NCBI RefSeq assembly: GCF_003416765.1
Contig: NZ_QSNG01000001.1
Location: forward strand, 1,948,742-2,012,741
DNA length: 64,000 bases
Source of the DNA: Paratractidigestivibacter faecalis
GTDB taxonomy: Bacteria > Actinomycetota > Coriobacteriia > Coriobacteriales > Atopobiaceae
Direction of reading: 5' to 3'
Below, piece after piece: positions 1,903 to 15,093 of the stretch. The translations under genes were made by a program, and so were the position numbers. The notes below the pieces were generated by a model. It saw only the letters and a program-made list of their open reading frames with translations. It was not told the DNA's origin and searched no databases. Position 1 is the first letter of the stretch; every line of letters starts with the position of its first letter.

Positions 1903-1969
1903 GCAACTTAACACTTAACTTCGCACTTAACATCGCAGCTGCGAAGTTGCTGTTAAGTTAAGTGTTAAG
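1903..1969. repeat. 67-bp repeat, upstream copy, with nested palindromes
   Basis: This segment is repeated at 3483-3549 with one mismatch (T1958 against G3538). Its outer 13-bp arms, CTTAACACTTAAC at 1907-1919 and the complement at 1957-1969, flank a perfect 12-bp palindrome TCGCAGCTGCGA at 1933-1944. The hexamer CTTAAC occurs three times on each strand. It ends 31 bases before the start codon of the following regulator-like gene, so it may be an operator array or a recombination end. Confidence 0.9.
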
Positions 1970-2000
1970 CTGATGCGAAGTTGAGCCGAACGGAGGGGCA

Positions 2001-3473
2001 ATGAACGAGCAGTGGCTTGCGAACACCATCAATGAGCTGCGAAGAATCGGAAATGACTCTCAGCGCTTTGAGGTAAAGGAAGCAAAGCAGTCCTTGCCCA
2101 AGAGCCTTGTTGAGACCATGTCGGCCTTTTCCAACTCATCCGGCGGCTTCATCATTCTGGGAATTTCCGAAAAGAACGGATTTGCACCGGTTGAGGGCTT
2201 TGAAGCCCGGCGAATCCAAGACGCCCTTGCGAACGAGTGCGATAAGCTCACTCCGCCCGTGCGGCCACAGATCGAGGTGATTCCCTTCGAGGAGTCTCTT
2301 GTTGTATGCGCCCGGGTCAAGGAGATGCACCCGAGGGACAAGCCGTGCTACATCACCGCGCGTGGGATGTACGACTCCTCCTACGTGAGGACGGGCGACG
2401 GCGACAGGCGAATGACCTCCTATGAGGTCGACCGCTATATGGAGGAGCATCTCCAGCCCACCTACGATGACGACGCGGTCGAGGGCGCCGAGCTCGCCGA
2501 TCTGGATGCGGAGCTGCTCGCCGGCTTCGTCAGGCGGCAGAAGGAACTCCACCCTCGCATCCTGGGTTCTCGCAGCGACGAGGAGGTCCTTCTCGACCTG
2601 CACGTTGTAAAGCGGCAGGGAGATGCCCTTGTGCCGACGCTTGCCGGTTTGATGGCGACGGGCTCTTTTCCGCAGAAGTTCTTTCCGAGGCTCAACGTGA
2701 CGTTCACCGCATACCCTGGAACGTCAAGGACCGAGCGGGTGAACGATAGCCGGAGGTTTCTCGACAACCAGTCGATAGTTGGCTCCATCCCCGTGATGAT
2801 CGAGGACGCAATCGCCGCTGTGGTGCGGAACACCAGGACCGGCGCGGTGATTGAGGGGGCGTTTCGAAGGGACGTGCCTGACTATCCGGCCACGGCGGTG
2901 CGCGAGGCGATTGCAAACGCCCTCATGCACCGAGACTACTCTCCGGAATCGCGAGGGTCACAGGTGCAGGTGAACCTCTACGTTGACCGTCTGGAGATCA
3001 TCAACCCGGGTGGGCTGTATGGAGACGTGACCATAGAGTCACTCGGCACCAGTGGCGTCTCGTCTGCGCGAAACCAGTTCCTCTCCAACATTCTGGAGAC
3101 GACTCCCTATCCGGCCGGCGGCTACGTGGTCGAGAACAGGGGCACCGGATATCAGGAGATTGGTGAGCAGCTCAGGCGCGCTTTGATGCCTCCCGCCCGA
3201 CCTCACAACTCAACGGTTGCGTTCTCTCTGACGTTCGACCGGCGCCGAGTTGCCCCAAGCGAAAGGAAGAACGGCGCCGCCGGGGGAGTGGACGATGCGA
3301 TACTTGACTACCTTGCGAAGCACTCCTCTGCATCCATGGCCGAGCTGGTTTCGGAGTCCGGCCTGTCGAGGTCGAGCATCACGAGCCATGTGAGGTCTCT
3401 GATAGAGTCGGGCTCGGTCGAGCCAATGGAACCACCAAGGAGCCCCAAGCAGCGATACAGGCTCGTCAGATAG
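2001..3473 (+). CDS. Schlafen/AlbA_2-domain regulator with C-terminal winged helix
   Basis: Predicted 490-residue cytosolic protein. Residues about 15-130 form an AlbA_2 (Schlafen AAA-like) domain, with the typical SNSSGGFIILGI segment. Residues about 290-410 resemble the HATPase_c_4 module found in such proteins (REAIANALMHRDY, then EIINPGGL). Residues about 430-490 form a helix-turn-helix (MAELVSESGLSRSSITSHVR). Such proteins are usually annotated as putative transcriptional regulators; their ligand is not known. CGGAGGGG precedes ATG 2001. The gene sits alone between two 67-bp near-identical palindromic repeats, which suggests self-regulation, mobility as a cassette, or both. It interrupts an otherwise housekeeping stretch between argH and purB. 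Confidence 0.85.
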   Translation: MNEQWLANTINELRRIGNDSQRFEVKEAKQSLPKSLVETMSAFSNSSGGFIILGISEKNGFAPVEGFEARRIQDALANECDKLTPPVRPQIEVIPFEESLVVCARVKEMHPRDKPCYITARGMYDSSYVRTGDGDRRMTSYEVDRYMEEHLQPTYDDDAVEGAELADLDAELLAGFVRRQKELHPRILGSRSDEEVLLDLHVVKRQGDALVPTLAGLMATGSFPQKFFPRLNVTFTAYPGTSRTERVNDSRRFLDNQSIVGSIPVMIEDAIAAVVRNTRTGAVIEGAFRRDVPDYPATAVREAIANALMHRDYSPESRGSQVQVNLYVDRLEIINPGGLYGDVTIESLGTSGVSSARNQFLSNILETTPYPAGGYVVENRGTGYQEIGEQLRRALMPPARPHNSTVAFSLTFDRRRVAPSERKNGAAGGVDDAILDYLAKHSSASMAELVSESGLSRSSITSHVRSLIESGSVEPMEPPRSPKQRYRLVR

Positions 3474-3482
3474 AAACGGATG

Positions 3483-3549
3483 GCAACTTAACACTTAACT
3501 TCGCACTTAACATCGCAGCTGCGAAGTTGCTGTTAAGGTAAGTGTTAAG
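3483..3549. repeat. 67-bp repeat, downstream copy
   Basis: Matches 1903-1969 at 66 of 67 positions and in the same orientation. It begins 10 bases after the stop codon of the Schlafen-type gene. The single mismatch lies in the right outer arm. It is also about 100 bases upstream of purB and could influence that promoter. Confidence 0.9.
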
Positions 3550-3554
3550 AAGCC

Positions 3555-3576
3555 GGTGCCGCATGCGAGCGGCACC
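3555..3576 (+). terminator. Hairpin after the Schlafen-type gene
   Basis: GGTGCCGC at 3555-3562 pairs with GCGGCACC at 3569-3576 around a 6-base loop. No T-run follows. TAAAAT at 3591-3596 just downstream is a plausible -10 box for purB, though I find no good -35. Confidence 0.45.
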
Positions 3577-3650
3577 CCAGCCCGCCGCGCTAAAATCGAA
3601 AACGTTGTGCAAAGGCATGTTGGCAGCCGCGACCTCACAGGAGGACCCAC

Positions 3651-4997
<1,347 letters not shown>

Positions 4998-5010
4998 CAA
5001 TCGCACACCA

Positions 5011-5034
5011 GGCGAGAAGCGCACACTTCTTGCC
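5011..5034. terminator. Imperfect hairpin with GGCGAGAAG motif after purB
   Basis: GGCGAGAAG at 5011-5019 faces CTTCTTGCC at 5026-5034, pairing fully if one G-U wobble is allowed. It starts 13 bases after the purB stop. There is no clear T-run. Confidence 0.45.
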
Positions 5035-5129
5035 GCCCAACCCCAGAGCGTACGGCGCCCGTCGCGGGAGATTCCGGCGGCGGGCGCTGGGTATACTGTG
5101 ACGACACCGAAGAGAGGGGAAGCTCCACC

Positions 5130-5417
5130 ATGCAGCACGTTGACTTCAAGCCGCGCGGCGTCTGCTCGCGCATGATCCACATCGACCTTTCCGACGACGG
5201 CAAGACCATCGAGGACGTGAACTTTGACGGAGGCTGCTCCGGCAACCTGGCCGCCATCGGCAAGCTCGTCTCCGGCCGTCCCACCGAGGAGGTGGCCCAG
5301 ATTCTGAAGGGCAACACCTGCGGCCCCCGCAAGACCTCCTGCGCGGATCAGTTCTCGCAGGCGCTCCTGCAGGCCATGGAGCAGATCCAGGCCGCCGGCA
5401 CCGTCCAGGCGGAGTAG
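5130..5417 (+). CDS. TSCPD domain-containing small protein
   Basis: Predicted 95-residue protein. The segments FDGGCSGNLAAIGKLVSG and a C-terminal GPRKTSCADQ fit the TSCPD domain, a small cysteine-containing module also found at the C-terminus of some ribonucleotide reductases; stand-alone members (TIGR03905-like) have no established function. Cysteines at CSR, GCS, TCG and SCA could bind metal. GAGAGGGGAAG precedes the start and TATACT at about 5093 is a plausible -10 box. The Tat lipoprotein gene follows 9 bases after the stop and may be co-transcribed. Confidence 0.8.
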   Translation: MQHVDFKPRGVCSRMIHIDLSDDGKTIEDVNFDGGCSGNLAAIGKLVSGRPTEEVAQILKGNTCGPRKTSCADQFSQALLQAMEQIQAAGTVQAE

Positions 5418-5426
5418 GTCCGACCG

Positions 5427-6635
5427 GTGAGGGGCCCCAAGCTCTCAAGGCGCGGCTTCTTCAAGGCGGCGGCCACCACGGCCGCGGCCAGTGCCGCCGT
5501 GACCATTCTCTCCGGCTGCACCCATGGAGCGGAGAAGGGCGCGGACACCTCGTCGCCCGTCGTGGTGGACGAGGGCTCGGCGCCCAGCGTGACTGATGAC
5601 TACCAGTACGACGACTCGGCGATGGCCCCGGCCCACGAGTGGTCCCTGCCCCTGGGCAACGTGCTCCACGCCGCGGAGGGCACCTGGATCCCGGTGGCAA
5701 CCGCCGGCTCCTCCGCCACGCCCATGGTGGTGGCCTCCGCGCTCTCGCTTGAGTCCGGCAAGCTCCTCGAGGTGGTCTCCGCCCCCAAGGGACAGGCCAC
5801 CACGACGGTCATCTACGACGTCGCCTGCTCCGACTCCGTCTACGCCTGGGTGGAGCTGGACACCACCACGCGCTCCTGGACGCTCTACGGCTCGCGCTTC
5901 TCGGCTGGTGCGCTCACGGGCGACACCAAGACCCTGTGGCAGGCCACGTCCGACTATGACCCGGCGCCCATCGCCTGCTCAGGCGAGCGCGTGCTCTGGC
6001 AGGTCCAACCCTCGCTCTCGGGCACAAAGACGGCGGAGTCCAGCTACTGCTACCTGTGGCACGCCGGCAGCGGCGACGCCACCGCAGTCGTGGAGTCCCC
6101 CGGGCGCTTTGCCACCAAGCCCAACGTGTCTGGCGACTGCGCCATCCTCACGCCGCGCGTCCGCGCGAACGAGGGTACCTACTACGGCGTCACGGCCTAC
6201 TCGCTCTCCGACGACCTAGCCACCAAGATCGACCAGCTCGTCATGCCGGCCGGCGTGAAGCCCTTCCGCGCCACGCGCGTGGGGGAGCGCTTCCTGGTCT
6301 CGGTGGAGGCCAGCTACAGCACGGGAGGCCTTTTGGGCCAGATGGGCACCTACATGGGCACGGAGTCCGCGGGCTTCGTCAAGCTCAACCGAGAGCCGTC
6401 CGAGGTGGGATGCGGCAAGGGCGACAAGTTCGTCATCAAGAGCCGGTCCTCCTACTTTGTGGTAGACCTCGCCAACAAGACTTACGGCAGCCTTGACTCG
6501 GCCGACCGCTGCGTCGACTACGGCGAGTTTCCGGCCCGGGTGGGGGACTGCTCGACCTTCGTGACCTTCTCGACGGTCAAGAACGCGGACACCGGCTACC
6601 CCGATTCCGTGACGGTTCGCACCTTCCAGCTGTAA
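5427..6635 (+). CDS. Twin-arginine signal lipoprotein of unknown function
   Basis: Predicted 402 residues from GTG 5427. The N-terminus has SRRGFF (arginines 8-9) and then a hydrophobic run ending ILSGC (Cys31), a Tat signal with a lipobox, so the protein should be folded before export and lipid-anchored outside the membrane. The rest has repeated WxL/serine-rich segments and alternating short hydrophobic strands that could form a beta-propeller-like fold, but I recognise no domain. The ribosome site is weak; GGAG overlaps the end of the previous gene, suggesting translational coupling with the TSCPD gene. Confidence 0.7.
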   Translation: MRGPKLSRRGFFKAAATTAAASAAVTILSGCTHGAEKGADTSSPVVVDEGSAPSVTDDYQYDDSAMAPAHEWSLPLGNVLHAAEGTWIPVATAGSSATPMVVASALSLESGKLLEVVSAPKGQATTTVIYDVACSDSVYAWVELDTTTRSWTLYGSRFSAGALTGDTKTLWQATSDYDPAPIACSGERVLWQVQPSLSGTKTAESSYCYLWHAGSGDATAVVESPGRFATKPNVSGDCAILTPRVRANEGTYYGVTAYSLSDDLATKIDQLVMPAGVKPFRATRVGERFLVSVEASYSTGGLLGQMGTYMGTESAGFVKLNREPSEVGCGKGDKFVIKSRSSYFVVDLANKTYGSLDSADRCVDYGEFPARVGDCSTFVTFSTVKNADTGYPDSVTVRTFQL

Positions 6636-6733
6636 GGGTCGGACTACACCCCGCGGCTTGTGGGGTAAACTAGGGAACATCTACGGGCCTGGCCCGCCAG
6701 GCCGTGCAGTCGACATCACACAGGGAGGCCAAC

Positions 6734-7450
6734 ATGGCTTCGGATGAGAAGAAGATTCTGCTTGTTGAGGACGAGAAGGCAATCCGCGATGCCGTGGCTG
6801 CCTACCTCGAGCGCGAGGGCTACATCGTGCGCGGCGTCGGCGACGGCCAGAGCGCCGTCGAGGAGTTCGAGAAGCACTCCTTTGACCTCGTGATCCTTGA
6901 CCTCATGCTGCCCAAGCTCTCCGGCGAGCGCGTCTGTCGCACCATCCGCGAGACCTCCAACGTGCCCATCATCATGCTGACCGCAAAGGGCGAGGTCGAG
7001 GACCGCATCATCGGCCTGGAGCTGGGCGCCGACGACTACCTCATCAAGCCCTTCTCGCCGCGCGAGCTCGTTGCCCGCGTGCGCGCCCTGCTGCGCCGCG
7101 CCCACACCGAGGCCGAGCCGGCCCTCGAGGTGCTGGACTTCGGCGACCTGGTGATCGACATCTCCGGCCACAAGGTCATCGTCGAGGGCACCGAGGTTGA
7201 CCTCACCGCCTCCGAGTTCAAGCTCCTGACCACCCTCGCCCGCTACCCGGGCCGCGTCTACACCCGCATGGAGCTGGTGGAGAAGGTCCTGGGCTATGAC
7301 TTCGAGGGCTACGAGCGCACCATTGACTCCCACGTCAAGAACCTGCGTGCCAAGCTTGGCGACGACCCGCGCAACCCGCGCTGGCTCTACACCGTCCACG
7401 GCGTGGGATATCGCTTCGAGGCTCCCGAGAAGCCCGCTGACGCCAAGTAG
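6734..7450 (+). CDS. OmpR/PhoB-family response regulator
   Basis: Predicted 238 residues. The receiver domain (about 7-120) has the acidic pair in VEDEK, the phospho-acceptor Asp56 in LVILDLMLP and the conserved Lys in GADDYLIKPFSPREL. The C-terminal part (about 135-232) is a winged-helix DNA-binding domain ending with the usual LYTVHGVGYRF. ATG 6734 is chosen because AGGGAGG sits just upstream and the protein then begins MASDEKKILLVEDE; an in-frame start at 6704 is less likely. The cognate kinase gene begins 22 bases after the stop, so the two form a two-component operon. The target genes are unknown. Confidence 0.95.
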   Translation: MASDEKKILLVEDEKAIRDAVAAYLEREGYIVRGVGDGQSAVEEFEKHSFDLVILDLMLPKLSGERVCRTIRETSNVPIIMLTAKGEVEDRIIGLELGADDYLIKPFSPRELVARVRALLRRAHTEAEPALEVLDFGDLVIDISGHKVIVEGTEVDLTASEFKLLTTLARYPGRVYTRMELVEKVLGYDFEGYERTIDSHVKNLRAKLGDDPRNPRWLYTVHGVGYRFEAPEKPADAK

Positions 7451-10724: not shown

Positions 10725-10800
10725 GCCTTCGTAGCTCAGGGGATAGAGCACCGCTCTCCTAAAGCGGGTGTCGGCCGTTCGAATCGGCCCGGGGGCACCA
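10725..10800 (+). tRNA. tRNA-Arg (anticodon CCT), integration site
   Basis: 76-base cloverleaf with encoded CCA. The acceptor stem pairs GCCTTCG with CGGGGGC (two G-U pairs). The anticodon loop CTCCTAA is at 10756-10762 with CCT at 10758-10760, and the T loop TTCGAAT is intact. TAGAAT at 10709-10714 is a plausible -10 box. The 3' half, from the first anticodon-loop base onward, is duplicated at 14999, so an integrated element has rebuilt the tRNA. Confidence 0.97.
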
Positions 10801-10850
10801 GAAAGAACAGCAGGTCAGAGGGGTTGTCTCCTCTGGCCTGCTTTTGTTTT
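10756..10850 (+). repeat. attL: 95-bp direct repeat (tRNA 3' half plus terminator)
   Basis: Identical over 95 bases to 14999-15093, offset 4,243. It starts exactly at the 5' base of the anticodon loop of tRNA-Arg and runs through the CCA end and the terminator hairpin. The base before it differs (T10755 against A14998) and the base after it differs (G10851 against T15094). The crossover is probably within the 7-base anticodon loop, as for many tyrosine integrases. Confidence 0.96.
10809..10850 (+). terminator. Terminator of tRNA-Arg
   Basis: AGCAGGTCAGAGG pairs with CCTCTGGCCTGCT (one mismatch) around a short loop, and TTTTGTTTT follows. The same hairpin is present in the right-hand repeat at about 15052-15093. 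Confidence 0.85.
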
Positions 10851-10872
10851 GCGGGTTGATTCTGCCTAACAA

Positions 10873-10892
10873 TCCCAGAATCGTCCCAGAAT
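10873..10892. promoter_or_regulatory. Two arm-type repeats near attL
   Basis: TCCCAGAAT occurs at 10873-10881 and 10884-10892, an 11-bp period (one helical turn). The same motif recurs three times at the same period near attR. Tyrosine integrases bind such arm sites with their N-terminal domain, so these are probable integrase arm sites. Confidence 0.65.
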
Positions 10893-10908
10893 GCCTTCGG
10901 AGGGATGT

Positions 10909-12183
10909 TCACGACACGAGCTTGAAGCGCTTGCTGGCGACAATCTCGCCGAACAGCTCGCCCGCCTTCTTGTCCTCCTCGTCCAGGCTGTGGGAGTAGA
11001 AGTCGTACGTCGTGGACACCTTCGAGTGCCCAAGCCTCTTCGCGACCGTGGGGACGGGGACGCCGCTGGCTATGAGAATGCTGGTCTGAGTGTGCCTGAG
11101 CTCGTGGAACCTCAGGTCACCGCATCCCAGCTCGCCCCTGTGCCCTGCCCACCAACGCGAAAAGTTCGACGTGCCGATGTGACCGCCCGTCGAGGAGCAG
11201 ACAACGGGCGTCTCCGCCGTCTGCTCGATGGAAAGCCCGGCGAGGTATTGGGCTTGCCTCTCTTGCCATGTCCTCAAGTGGCCAATGGTGTCCCCGTCAA
11301 CGGGGATGGAGCGAACGCCCGCGCTCGTCTTCGGGGATTTGAGGTCACCGTCCACCGTAAGGCTCTTATCGACGAGGATACGCCGACCGTCGAAATCGAC
11401 CGATGCCCAGTCGAGCGCCAGAACCTCCCCACGGCGGCACCCGGTGGCGAAGGCGATGCGGACGGCGATGATTCGGGACACGCCGTCTATGCCGGCTATC
11501 CGCGTCCTCGCGTCGGTGCGGCCTCGCTCGTCCCTGCCGAGTTCCAGCGCCCCGATTCTCGCATACGCCTCCGCCTCGGCATCGTCGAGCCTCGCGGCGA
11601 GCTGCCCTGCCTCCTCGTACTCGAGGGTGTTGCGCTTGCGCTCCTCGCAGACGGGGGCGTCCACCTGCTCCATGGGGTTCCGAATCACGAGGTCGTACTT
11701 CAGGGCGAGCTTGAAGACCCCGTTCAGAACGACGTAGTACTTCTTTAGGCGCGAGCCGGTCAGAGGCTTGTCGCGCTCCTCGTTGAGCTTGTCGAACAGC
11801 TTGTCGATTGCGTAATGGTCGAGGCTCGTCAGGCGAGCATCGCCGATGTACTTGCACAGGCTCTCGAGAATCGACCGATTGTCGGACACGGTGGTCTTCG
11901 CCGGCCTGCCCGTCTCCTCGCACGCCTTCTCGCGGCGGGCCAGCCACACGCCTACGGCGAACTCCTCGAAGGTCATGCGCGAGCCGTCGTAGGAAAGCCC
12001 GCTGTTGTGCTGTTTCCTCAGCTCGTCGCGTACCTTGCGGGCGTCCGCCTTCGTGCCGTGCACCGTCCTGCTGACGCTTCGGTACCTGCCCGTCACGCTG
12101 TCCTTGCCGAACGCGACGCGAACCTCCCAGACGCCCTTGCCCTTGCTGCGAATGGAGCCGTCTCCCTTCGTCGCCCTTGCCAT
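10909..12183 (-). CDS. int: Tyrosine site-specific integrase
   Basis: Predicted 424 residues. The N-terminus (RATKGDGSIRSKGKGVWEV) is an arm-binding domain, followed by a core-binding SAM-like domain (about 65-165) and a catalytic domain with the Arg in ATGCRRGEVLAL, HELRHTQ and the tyrosine segment RLGHSKVSTTYDFYSH. It would catalyse insertion into and excision from the tRNA-Arg anticodon loop. The gene ends 58 bases inside attL, pointing toward it. The start at 12183 is chosen from GGAGTGGGG upstream; ATG 12186 and a longer form from 12210 are possible. All catalytic residues are visible, so it is probably active. Confidence 0.95.
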   Translation of the reverse strand: MARATKGDGSIRSKGKGVWEVRVAFGKDSVTGRYRSVSRTVHGTKADARKVRDELRKQHNSGLSYDGSRMTFEEFAVGVWLARREKACEETGRPAKTTVSDNRSILESLCKYIGDARLTSLDHYAIDKLFDKLNEERDKPLTGSRLKKYYVVLNGVFKLALKYDLVIRNPMEQVDAPVCEERKRNTLEYEEAGQLAARLDDAEAEAYARIGALELGRDERGRTDARTRIAGIDGVSRIIAVRIAFATGCRRGEVLALDWASVDFDGRRILVDKSLTVDGDLKSPKTSAGVRSIPVDGDTIGHLRTWQERQAQYLAGLSIEQTAETPVVCSSTGGHIGTSNFSRWWAGHRGELGCGDLRFHELRHTQTSILIASGVPVPTVAKRLGHSKVSTTYDFYSHSLDEEDKKAGELFGEIVASKRFKLVS

Positions 12184-12402
12184 CATCCCCACTCCTCTCC
12201 AGACGTTCAAGCTGCGAGATTACTTGCCGTAGTATGACTGCACTGTCTTGGCTTTGTCCACTTAACGCGTTTCTACATATGACTGGTTAATATAATACCA
12301 TATGGACAAATTAGATATATAGAAATACAGTTATACCAGCGGAAATAACCATTTTAAGGAGGAATAATATCATTCGATAACACATATAAGGAAGTCAATT
12401 TG
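12184..12402. promoter_or_regulatory. AT-rich divergent control region of the element
   Basis: About 200 bases of much lower GC than the surroundings separate the minus-strand integrase from the plus-strand genes. CATATG palindromes at 12276-12281 and 12299-12304 are spaced 23 bp apart and flank TATAAT at 12291-12296, a good -10 box for the plus strand, although I see no matching -35. AAGGAGG near 12356-12362 is a strong ribosome site with no obvious gene after it. This is the likely place for a helper-phage or host signal to act. Confidence 0.55.
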
Positions 12403-12621
12403 ATGCAAGGGGTGAATCTCGAGGCCAGCAAAAGCCTGTTCGGCGAATACGGCGACCTTCTGACGATGGAGGATTGCGCCGAGATTACCCACCAAACGAC
12501 CCAGACCGTAAGGGCGCTTTGTCGCGAGAAGGTGTTGCCCAGCGCCCGCATCGGGAGAAGGCTCTACGTGCCTAAGGCTCTGCTCATCGACTACATCCAG
12601 TCTCAGATTGCGGGCGAGTAG
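12403..12621 (+). CDS. Excisionase/AlpA-like helix-turn-helix protein
   Basis: Predicted 72 residues. MEDCAEITHQTTQTVRALCREKVLPSARIG with RRLYVPKALLIDYI is the pattern of the MerR-like excisionase-family HTH (HTH_17): recognition helix, then a wing with the conserved GRRLYVPK. In satellites and prophages such proteins act as excisionase or as activator of excision and replication genes. AAGGAAG lies 8 bases before ATG 12403; a TTG at 12400 is possible. The replication-type gene begins two bases after the stop, so the two are one transcription unit. Confidence 0.85.
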   Translation: MQGVNLEASKSLFGEYGDLLTMEDCAEITHQTTQTVRALCREKVLPSARIGRRLYVPKALLIDYIQSQIAGE

Positions 12622-12623
12622 CG

Positions 12624-13301
12624 ATGGGCAAGGCGATGTTCAGTTCGGACGTGGTGGGTACGGACTCTTTCCTCGACTTGCCGGAGGAGGCGCAGCTTCT
12701 TTATCACCGTCTAGGGTTCGAAGGCGCGTACGGCAAGATTGTGGGAATCCGCAGAATCGCACGAGGGTTCGGGGCGAGCACCGACGCGTTGGACGCCCTC
12801 TACAAATCGGGCTACCTGTTCGACTACGGCGACGCTTGCTGGGTGCGTCACTACTGGGTAAACAACACCTTCAAAAAGCCCAACAACAACCCCGCCAAGA
12901 ACATACCCGAGATAGCGTCAGGCGAAATCGGGTTCGCGGGGGAGGAGTTTAGGAGCGCATTTGTGTGCCCAAGCGTCGACAAACCTTCGAACGGCCTTAC
13001 GGCAGCCTACCGGGCAGCCTACCAGGCAGGCTACACAGTAACAGGAACAGTAACAGGCCCAGCCTCGGCTACAGGAGCGGAAACAGGTTCAACGACAGAG
13101 GCATTGGCAGACTCAATTTCAAACTCAGACACAGCCGCATCAACAGGAACAGGGGAAGAGGCACGCGGAGAGGGGGACGGTTCACACCCCTGCTGTTGCC
13201 AAAAATGCGGGAGCCAAAAGGCGACCTACCGCGAAGAGGGTGGAAAGATCTTCATTCGTTGCCCCGATTGCGGCGAGTCCGAGTTTTCCTATTCCCACTG
13301 A
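12624..13301 (+). CDS. Replisome-organizer-like protein with C-terminal zinc ribbon
   Basis: Predicted 225 residues. Residues 1-90 (AMFSSDVVGTDSFLDLPEEA, LYHRLGFEG, IARGFGAS, then HYWVNNTFKKPN) match the winged-helix N-terminal domain of phage replisome-organizer/DnaD-type proteins, which load helicase at an origin. A low-complexity Thr/Gly/Ala/Ser linker (about 130-185) follows. The end has CCCQKCG and IRCPDCGES, a zinc ribbon of the type seen in replication and recombination proteins. The DNA of the linker carries periodic ACAGTAACAGG repeats that could be iterons. Best read as the element's own replication initiator; direct evidence of origin binding is lacking. Confidence 0.75.
   Translation: MGKAMFSSDVVGTDSFLDLPEEAQLLYHRLGFEGAYGKIVGIRRIARGFGASTDALDALYKSGYLFDYGDACWVRHYWVNNTFKKPNNNPAKNIPEIASGEIGFAGEEFRSAFVCPSVDKPSNGLTAAYRAAYQAGYTVTGTVTGPASATGAETGSTTEALADSISNSDTAASTGTGEEARGEGDGSHPCCCQKCGSQKATYREEGGKIFIRCPDCGESEFSYSH
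13035..13088. repeat. Iteron-like ACAGG repeats inside the replication gene
   Basis: ACAGTAACAGG occurs at 13035-13045 and 13047-13057 (12-bp period), and ACAGG recurs at 13071, 13083, 13143 and 13149. The repeats also encode the low-complexity linker, so they could simply reflect its protein sequence. Origins inside rep genes are common in small replicons. Confidence 0.4.
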
Positions 13302-13315
13302 GAGAAAGAGGTTCA

Positions 13316-13708
13316 ATGACGGAAAGACAAACGATGAGTACCCCCGTCCCTGCCATGCTTGGCGGCGACGCAGGAGACGGGGGCGCCAGAGCCGGCGAGA
13401 ACGCCGACAACGCCAAGTATAAGGCGACGCTCTTGAGGGAGCGCGAGTGGAGGCGCCTGAACCCACGTCTCTGGTCTGAGATTGAGGCATGGGCGCTCGC
13501 AGAGGCCGCTGCCGGGCGCAAGTTCGCGATGCAGACCGCTCTCGAGCGCGTCCGCTGGAAAGACTACGCGAACGACGAGGGCAACCCTACCAAGGTGCCC
13601 AACGACTTCGGAGCCATTTGGGCGCGTCTTCTCGTCGCGACGCACCCCGAGGTCAGGCCGTTCGTTACCATGCGGCCTTCCGTCTACGACGGATTTGAGG
13701 TGCGCTAG
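13316..13708 (+). CDS. Small phage-type protein of unknown function
   Basis: Predicted 130 residues. The N-terminal ~35 residues are Gly/Ala/Pro-rich; the rest (REREWRRLNP, FAMQTALERVRWKDYAND, PNDFGAIWARLLVATHPEV) looks like small conserved proteins that occur near packaging or HNH genes of actinobacterial phages, but I cannot name the family. AGAGG precedes ATG 13316; an internal ATG at 13334 is possible. The reading frame is open further upstream into the replication gene, but that part is an Arg-rich frame shadow. The terS-like gene begins at the base after its stop. Confidence 0.7.
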   Translation: MTERQTMSTPVPAMLGGDAGDGGARAGENADNAKYKATLLREREWRRLNPRLWSEIEAWALAEAAAGRKFAMQTALERVRWKDYANDEGNPTKVPNDFGAIWARLLVATHPEVRPFVTMRPSVYDGFEVR

Positions 13709-14164
13709 GTGACCCCGAAGAGGCGGGCATTCGCCCGCGCCCTCATAGAGGGCAACAACCCGAGCGAGGCGTACCGAATGGCCTATTCGACCGCTGGCAT
13801 GAGCGCGAAGAGTGTCGCCAACGAGGCCAACAAGCTCAAGCAAGACCCTGAGATTGCCCGGATGGTATCGGACGGAGAGAAGAGGGCGATGGAGAACAGC
13901 GTTTGGAACAGGGCAAAGGCCATCGAGCGACTAGAGGACGTGAACCTCAAATGCTACCAGGCTCTGATGAGAGGCGTCGACAGGGATGCACTGAACGGGT
14001 TCATGGAGACCACCCGCGAGCTGGATTCCCTGTGCAACGTCTCGGCCGAGGTGGCCGAGGATTACCAGACACGCTTCCAGACCAAGGAGAAGCTGATAGA
14101 GGCGGCTCGCCGCAGCCAAATGGCCTCCGACGCCCAGTTCGAGGCGTTCGCAACATCGTTTTAG
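13709..14164 (+). CDS. Terminase small subunit-like protein
   Basis: Predicted 151 residues from GTG 13709, which follows the previous stop directly; GAGG at 13697-13700 serves as ribosome site. The N-terminus (KRRAFARALIEGNNPSEAYR, then SAKSVANEANKLKQDPEIARM) is the helix-turn-helix of Terminase_2-type small subunits, which recognise the pac/cos site and guide packaging. The C-terminal part is helical. There is no large-subunit gene in the element, so this protein would have to work with a helper phage's TerL, as in PICI-type satellites. Confidence in the family is good but not certain. Confidence 0.75.
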   Translation: MTPKRRAFARALIEGNNPSEAYRMAYSTAGMSAKSVANEANKLKQDPEIARMVSDGEKRAMENSVWNRAKAIERLEDVNLKCYQALMRGVDRDALNGFMETTRELDSLCNVSAEVAEDYQTRFQTKEKLIEAARRSQMASDAQFEAFATSF

Positions 14165-14192
14165 AGTAATTCGACATAAGGAGAATTGAGAC

Positions 14193-14741
14193 ATGGCATT
14201 TATCAACGACGTAGACGGCATCCTGCGGAGGTACGAGACCGACCGAAACGTCCTCCTGGAGAAGCGCGACAGAGTAGAGCCGAGCGGCTACCGCAGCCGC
14301 GCCGCTCTGGAGGCCATGAGGGCGGAGCACGCCGAGGAGGTGGACGCCGAGCTGGCAAGGCTCCTGGACACCACCAGGGAGAGGCTGGACGCCGCGCTTG
14401 ACGGCTACGTCTCCGGCCTCTCGTCCAGGTACACGAAGACGCCAGAGACCATTGACGCCGCCGACCTCGCCCTGCTCACCTCGGGCGTGAGCCTCAGCGC
14501 GCAGGACGTCCAGGCCATGTACGGCAGGTGCAAGAACGACGCCATGCGCGAGGTGGTCGCGGCCTACGAGGCCGAGCACCAGACGGGCGCGGGCGTGACG
14601 TTCTTCTCCCAGGAGCAGCGCGCCGAGGCGGCGAGGGAATACGCGGCAGCCGCCAGGGACGCCGTGGGCAAGCCGGACGGCCTCGCGTTCGCCATGCTGC
14701 TTGACGGCAAGGCCGTGCCCGACAGCCTGACCGGAGAGTAG
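14193..14741 (+). CDS. Coiled-coil phage-type protein, possible scaffold/minor structural protein
   Basis: Predicted 182 residues, acidic and mostly helical, with a long Ala/Glu/Arg heptad-like stretch from about residue 30 to 75. No family recognised. AAGGAG lies 9 bases before ATG 14193. As the last gene of the element, after the terS-like gene, it sits where capsid-morphogenesis or packaging helpers lie in satellites, but that is only positional inference. Codon use is GC-rich like the host, unlike the AT-rich control region. Confidence 0.65.
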   Translation: MAFINDVDGILRRYETDRNVLLEKRDRVEPSGYRSRAALEAMRAEHAEEVDAELARLLDTTRERLDAALDGYVSGLSSRYTKTPETIDAADLALLTSGVSLSAQDVQAMYGRCKNDAMREVVAAYEAEHQTGAGVTFFSQEQRAEAAREYAAAARDAVGKPDGLAFAMLLDGKAVPDSLTGE

Positions 14742-14871
14742 CCACCAGAGGCCACAAGAGGCCGCTAGGAGGCTTTTGCAATGAGGAGTGGGTAAGTGGC
14801 CGGGTCTGAGCAATCGAGCCTTCTGGCGGCTTCTGTGCCCTCCGGGAATGGTCGTGCTCAGGCTCCGTACA

Positions 14872-14920
14872 TCCCAGAACCATCCCATAATCAACCCAGA
14901 ATGCGAACGATTATGGGATG
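14872..14920. promoter_or_regulatory. Three arm-type repeats and an inverted repeat near attR
   Basis: TCCCAGAAC at 14872, TCCCATAAT at 14883 and ACCCAGAAT at 14894 have an 11-bp period, like the pair near attL. CATCCCATAATC at 14881-14892 is also a perfect 12-bp inverted repeat of 14909-14920, putting one copy in the opposite orientation. Probable integrase or excisionase binding sites. No gene is seen in the remaining 14742-14998 stretch. Confidence 0.65.
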
Positions 14921-14998
14921 TTCTAGTTATACGTAGATAATGACAAAACACAACGTAAACAGTGGTATTTCACTTTTGGTAATGTGACTCAGCCTTCA

Positions 14999-15093
14999 CT
15001 CCTAAAGCGGGTGTCGGCCGTTCGAATCGGCCCGGGGGCACCAGAAAGAACAGCAGGTCAGAGGGGTTGTCTCCTCTGGCCTGCTTTTGTTTT
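14999..15093 (+). repeat. attR: 95-bp direct repeat (tRNA-Arg 3' half remnant)
   Basis: Identical to 10756-10850. It holds the 3' half of tRNA-Arg with its terminator but no 5' half, so it is not a functional tRNA. It marks the right end of the integrated element. Confidence 0.96.

Follow-up and report, generated by a model that had tools for sequence, protein, structure and literature searches.

A length of 7–20 kb has been used to define phage satellites (PMC13376191). The phage-inducible chromosomal minimalist islands (PICMIs) of Vibrionaceae, at about 6–7 kb, lie at fis, use a primase and carry no identifiable packaging genes, and one of them, PICMI115 (6.11 kb), was in 2024 called the smallest satellite with characterized activity (PMC10803314). 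Among Actinomycetota, the Streptomyces satellites MiniFlayer and MulchRoom have genes for capsid, portal and large terminase (PMC10690885), and candidate Mycobacterium phage-inducible chromosomal islands (PICIs) have been defined by a capsid gene (PMC10654092). Here we analyze a window of 64,000 nucleotides from Paratractidigestivibacter faecalis (contig NZ_QSNG01000001.1, positions 1,948,742 to 2,012,741), in which an earlier reading of the bare sequence, hereafter the original prediction, had placed a 4.24-kb element in a tRNA-Arg gene that looked like a minimal phage satellite from a probable host in Coriobacteriia, a class not known to have a described satellite family. The open-access literature that we searched links no satellite to Coriobacteriia, in agreement with that claim.

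The element is real and intact, and we hold with considerable confidence that it is a minimal phage satellite of the type that redirects packaging through a terminase small subunit (TerS). The points in favor are exact attachment (att) repeats, a complete set of integrase motifs, in-phase putative arm-type sites at both ends, a TerS gene accompanied by neither a large terminase subunit (TerL) nor any structural gene, 17 att-bounded relatives that share its gene order, and purifying selection among those relatives.

Boundaries and gene content of the element

The integration target is an intact tRNA-Arg(CCT) gene, detected by ARAGORN at window positions 10725–10800 on the plus strand. Flanking direct repeats of 95 nt at 10756–10850 and 14999–15093 (both given on the plus strand) proved to be 100% identical, as predicted, and their spacing of 4243 defines a unit of 4,243 bp. 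The attL-side copy covers the tRNA from its anticodon loop to its 3' end, together with the tRNA terminator, whose hairpin occupies 10809–10842; the second copy forms the attR side. The source genome (2.1 Mb, 99% complete) contains just these two full copies and a third, partial one elsewhere (80% match across 60 nt). Pattern scanning and repeat analysis located a tandem pair of ATCCCAGAAT-like sites with 11-bp spacing at the left end (10872 and 10883, spanning 10872–10892 on the plus strand) and, at the right end (14871–14919), three in tandem with the same spacing (14871, 14882 and 14893) plus one inverted (14910). Because such tandem sites with 11-bp spacing sit inside both ends, we predict that they are likely arm-type sites of the integrase.

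In most related elements the att identity is 28–50 bp, compared with 95 bp in the window element, where it extends through the host tRNA terminator. As the sister species has this terminator in a different form, the extended identity suggests that the element was acquired recently, its donor belonging to this species or to one very close to it. The original prediction had proposed a search for empty tRNA-Arg sites in sister strains. The left gene, tRNA-Arg(CCT) and terminator occur without an integrase in relatives, the sister species included, but no strict empty site with both flanks was found, and the right flank is not conserved.

Six open reading frames (ORFs), all of them open throughout, fill the unit without long gaps, with the integrase on the minus strand and five genes on the plus strand. 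The 425-aa tyrosine integrase (10909–12186; Pfam Phage_integrase 2e-20, phrog_1 1e-61) has readable catalytic motifs R, K, HxxR (HELRH), GH (LGH) and Y. Next to it lies an AT-rich divergent int/xis regulatory interval of 216 bp (12187–12402; low-GC window of about 0.48) with weak promoter-like matches, and then a gene (12403–12621) for a 72-aa AlpA/Xis-type helix-turn-helix (HTH) protein (HTH_17 8e-10), which from its sequence is probably an excisionase and/or activator. The following 225-aa protein (12624–13301; phrog_5708 1e-11) is a DnaD-like helicase loader or replisome organizer; the profile match covers its N-terminal 89 aa only, and the C terminus has a 4-Cys zinc-ribbon-like tail. A relative of 57% identity lies within another satellite-like element. 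A relative of 53–57% identity is in a record named uncultured Coriobacteriaceae, of the same family as the source genome, and other relatives are named Coriobacteriia; these names give the host class, in agreement with the original prediction. A series of ACAGGAACAG-like repeats in the replication gene was considered as iterons and rejected, being no more repetitive than shuffled sequence.

Downstream lie the gene for a conserved 130-aa protein (13316–13708), our best family marker, which matches a profile of unknown function (phrog_13625 6e-8) and whose model found only small uncharacterized phage proteins in a structure search (best E 1.6e-3), and the TerS gene (13709–14164), with a GTG start immediately 3' of the preceding stop. 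TerS matches phrog_1595 (2e-11) and phrog_51 (2e-7), and Pfam Terminase_2 at 1e-4, slightly under the family cut-off. The last gene (14193–14741) encodes a 182-aa protein, described as a helical hairpin from a low-confidence model, with relatives at the same place in other elements. Among the six ORFs, Pfam and PHROG profiles gave no match to any structural, lysis, TerL, relaxase or repressor family, which confirmed the gene content originally proposed: an integrase, an AlpA/Xis HTH protein, a replisome organizer, a TerS and two small proteins. Neither database revealed a primase, leaving the DnaD-like loader as the sole replication gene. The original prediction had seen no repressor gene and had asked how the element stays quiet. 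The observation held, as the 216-bp interval contains no repressor ORF. AlpA alone can act as the switch of PICMI115 (PMC10803314), and for this reason we see no objection to a satellite in the missing repressor.

Compact relatives in Coriobacteriia

Within its genus the element has no match, as the single further genome available there contains no homologue of TerS or the 182-aa protein. A profile of the 130-aa protein matched 50 places in 45 of 398 genomes of the class. By reading the DNA around matches to this marker and to the replication protein, we found 17 further compact elements, each bounded by a pair of exact direct repeats beginning within a tRNA gene, so that the search proposed with the original prediction, for the same gene order at tRNA genes of other Coriobacteriia, was productive. 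They measure 4.47, 4.84, 5.04, 5.13, 5.14, 5.22, 5.28, 5.46, 5.95, 5.96, 6.19, 6.25, 6.55, 6.70, 7.16, 7.35 and 9.65 kb and occupy tRNA-Arg(TCT), Phe, Leu(CAG), Val(TAC), Val(GAC), Pro, Ala, Thr(CGT), Thr(TGT), Lys(CTT) and Lys(TTT); the 18 elements together use 12 tRNA genes, in hosts from three families of Coriobacteriia. Partial att copies of 22–24 bp beyond the outer element end (L012, 4949 and 5121; L037, 7382 and 7553; L113, 7624) look as if they were remnants of earlier elements at the same tRNA.

Gene calling gave a common order that starts with int and a variable zone of regulators or cargo, continues with xis (HTH), the 130-aa-type protein and the replication gene, and often adds TerS, with a helical protein of 205–230 aa frequently last or near-last; L038 is an exception, being longer and carrying extra cargo. 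The regulators between int and xis include S24-like (L010), HTH_26 (L011) and HTH_3 (L035) proteins. A primase/helicase of 690–730 aa replaces the DnaD-like protein in L114 (7616–9814; Prim-Pol with D5_N) and L116 (10359–12434; AAA_25 with an NrS-1-like domain). Because the nearest relatives of the window modules lie in different elements (integrase, xis and 130-aa protein in L106–L108, replication protein in L035, TerS in L010), the family is, on sequence comparison, a mosaic. Between close copies (L011/L012; L110/L117/L118) the ratio of nonsynonymous to synonymous substitution rates (dN/dS) was 0.03–0.32 for the integrase, TerS and last-protein genes, which are therefore under purifying selection; the 130-aa gene gave 0.60 in one pair, with very few changes, and 0.23 in another.

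TerS candidates occur in 10 of the 18 elements and are of three unrelated kinds, never with TerL alongside. The phrog_1595/51 kind is found in the window element, L010, L011 and L012, and the phrog_2538/7344 kind in L037, L039 (at E 3e-4 only), L110 and L118. The third, phrog_2412, present in L035 and L113, has unknown function in PHROGs and is read as TerS by position, since Streptococcus phage Javan311 has a homologue whose gene overlaps the terL start. For the L118 TerS, 13 of 15 matching phage records are from Streptococcus, and all 8 of those among the matches listed are Streptococcus satellite phages; the other 2 of the 15 are fecal scaffolds of 6.3 and 11.5 kb. When distances to TerL were counted in 46 genomes with one TerL profile, some of the contigs being short, TerL lay within 60 kb of 6 of the 50 marker places, every one a weak marker match, and of none of the 27 strong ones. 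Loci with a TerL nearby are distant relatives only. The original prediction had named longer homologues with capsid or tail genes as the sign of a decayed prophage, and the related loci are as compact as the window element.

Comparison with known satellites and alternative explanations

Like satellites in general, the window element is att-bounded, has integrase and replication genes and contains no complete structural set. It resembles PICIs (Staphylococcus aureus pathogenicity islands, the Escherichia coli islands EcCI and the Javan-set Streptococcus satellites) in its integrase, excisionase/AlpA protein, own replication gene and att boundaries, and in having TerS for packaging redirection without TerL or structural genes, to which may be added the closeness of the L118 TerS to Streptococcus satellite phages. 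It differs in lacking the pri-rep primase, although a Prim-Pol/D5 primase exists in relative L114; in lacking the Stl-type repressor of Gram-positive PICIs, with an AlpA/Xis-type HTH_17 protein present and AlpA activators known from Gram-negative PICIs; in having no recognized capsid-morphogenesis gene such as some PICIs carry, its last gene matching no known family; in its coriobacterial host; and in its 4.2 kb, as against 7–20 kb (PMC13376191). Judged from sequence alone, it would work like a TerS-bearing PICI. We do not class it as one, since it lacks the pri-rep module and its induction is a prediction.

With PICMIs the element shares a minimal set of int and AlpA, the absence of capsid genes and a predicted independence of a repressor. 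Unlike them, it lies in tRNA-Arg(CCT) instead of beside fis, has a DnaD-like protein in place of the primase of the int, alpA and prim core, and carries TerS, and for these differences in site, primase and TerS it is not a PICMI. Capsid-forming PICIs would be expected to have capsid, portal and both terminase subunits, of which only TerS was matched here. Other Actinomycetota satellites come from the same phylum and have capsid genes, which the family of the window element lacks. The small size stressed in the original prediction is indeed below that of PICMI115, although very small satellites have precedent in the PICMIs of about 6 kb (PMC10803314).

In the mechanism that we propose, the element would rest in tRNA-Arg(CCT) until a tailed helper infects or is induced, whereupon the HTH_17 (AlpA/Xis) protein would be made and, with the integrase, excise a circle. 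The DnaD-like protein would load the helicase and drive replication, probably to concatemers. The element's TerS would then bind its own packaging site and recruit the helper's TerL, so that satellite DNA could be packed into the helper's particles, where concatemers would fill a full head, or smaller heads would be used. The helical protein of about 200 aa beside TerS would, on a guess from its position, probably assist packaging or capsid assembly.

Several observations weigh against the element being a satellite. It has no primase, although most satellites carry one; about 8 of the 18 elements have no recognizable TerS, which is thus common and not universal; and L115 has a split integrase and a different arrangement. 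DNA similarity between the element and the prophage resident in the same genome is at chance level. Pattern scans of IMG/VR viral contigs found no compact relative. They used TerS, the last protein in two versions, and the replication and 130-aa proteins, each of these two both as a single sequence and as an alignment, and returned a single TerS, from an unrelated phage, and one chance match of 16 residues. It also counts against a satellite that the proposed cycle, from induction by a helper through excision and replication to packaging, is inferred, as is the part played by the last protein.

Every module of the element is phage-like, and distant relatives of the 130-aa protein lie near TerL in true prophages, both of which speak for a decayed, immobile prophage that has lost its structural half. 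Decay of this sort is nonetheless quite improbable in our view, given six intact genes, identical ends with arm sites, purifying selection, 17 more att-bounded elements alike in size and gene order, and the presence in one zone of TerS genes of three unrelated kinds. An integrase, an excisionase and a replication gene are also the core of integrative and mobilizable elements and of actinomycete integrative and conjugative elements, and the locus might be a small plasmid-like element of that type, moving by conjugation, with the TerS-like protein as a DNA-binding regulator. The relaxase or FtsK-like transfer gene expected of such elements has no Pfam match in the six ORFs, no relative of the replication protein exists in 72,556 plasmids, and the TerS of the related L118 is closest to known satellite phages; we give this explanation very little credence.

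A third explanation accepts a satellite-like element and supposes that TerS and the last protein mainly block competing phages, as interference or defense, with transfer by generalized transduction or otherwise. TerS could poison the helper terminase, and such functions are common in satellites (PMC6092414). Three TerS kinds kept beside the replication gene fit self-packaging better, and int, xis and the replication genes have been retained, which makes interference as the main role unlikely. We accordingly favor a TerS-redirecting satellite, an interpretation that the compact relatives support, with its function predicted.

If this is correct, phage satellites would extend to a class of bacteria for which the literature that we searched describes none, and the gene set of a packaging-redirecting satellite would be lowered to six genes in 4.2 kb; if active, the element, at 4.24 kb, would be smaller than PICMI115. 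The variation found in nature, with 12 tRNA sites, three kinds of TerS and several replication modules, would allow the minimal needs for hijacking a tailed phage to be probed, and these hosts are predicted to harbor helper phages with terminases that work with the TerS proteins of the elements. More tentatively, Coriobacteriia may harbor a lineage, so far undescribed, of modular TerS satellites of very small size, the hallmark of which would be the frequent helical protein of about 200 aa after TerS, as a new packaging- or capsid-redirecting factor not found in tailed phages; at 4.2 kb the window element would then be smaller than any satellite with characterized activity that we found described.

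Resident prophage and the last protein

The source genome contains a separate tailed prophage near 0.92 Mb of C1 (about 0.905–0.935 Mb), with TerL (phrog_9), portal and tape-measure genes. Since the genome holds it, tailed phages infect this host, and this prophage is a possible helper. Ahead of TerL the prophage encodes a protein that differs in kind from the element's TerS. Related proteins of 185–188 aa with an HTH-like start, near the end of the tRNA-Thr elements L106 (7883–8449) and L108 (11773–12330), resemble that protein by eye at their start and are possibly a fourth TerS kind, for which profiles gave no support. An ORF of the prophage region (C1 927151–927636) shares 64% identity across 56 aa with a 61-aa protein encoded by L116 (12681–12866), an element from another genus.

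The 182-aa protein has no significant match to Pfam or PHROG profiles (best 0.57) and no trustworthy one in PHROGs, Pfam or the PDB. It aligns with the last or near-last proteins of L010, L011, L012, L035 and L113, and the profile built from these proteins extends to L106 and L108 (hhalign probability 95%); L110, L118, L105 and L117 have a like layout at their ends, with weak sequence support. Across the class the profile matched 14 places in 13 genomes, and most of the strong ones adjoin the 130-aa marker. The predicted model contains a long helical hairpin (residues 2–26 and 36–81, with block predicted local distance difference test (pLDDT) values mostly of 73–92) and is uncertain in the remainder; a structure search gave generic helical matches (best Z 8.3), and we claim no fold. 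We single out this unknown family as a candidate factor for packaging or the capsid.

In the phage collection, distant relatives of the last protein occur only in three fecal scaffolds of 6–11 kb (MT837714, MT836267 and MT837364). These are related to one another, carry the same-kind protein after TerS, and are linked to the window's 182-aa protein by position and layout. They are possibly from a study of virus particles in Mexican children (PMC8361208). In MT837364 (L146), the stretch 1921–6736 encodes TerS, a 105-aa protein and the same-kind helical protein, followed directly by genes that by eye are tail-chaperone-like and tape-measure-like; by analogy with helper-embedded PICIs (PMC10111431), it is perhaps a satellite embedded in the late genes of a helper. 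MT836267 (L131), an 11.5-kb scaffold with a 124-bp terminal repeat and hence likely circular, encodes TerS, TerL and the same-kind helical protein, and may be a larger cousin of the family to which the window element belongs.

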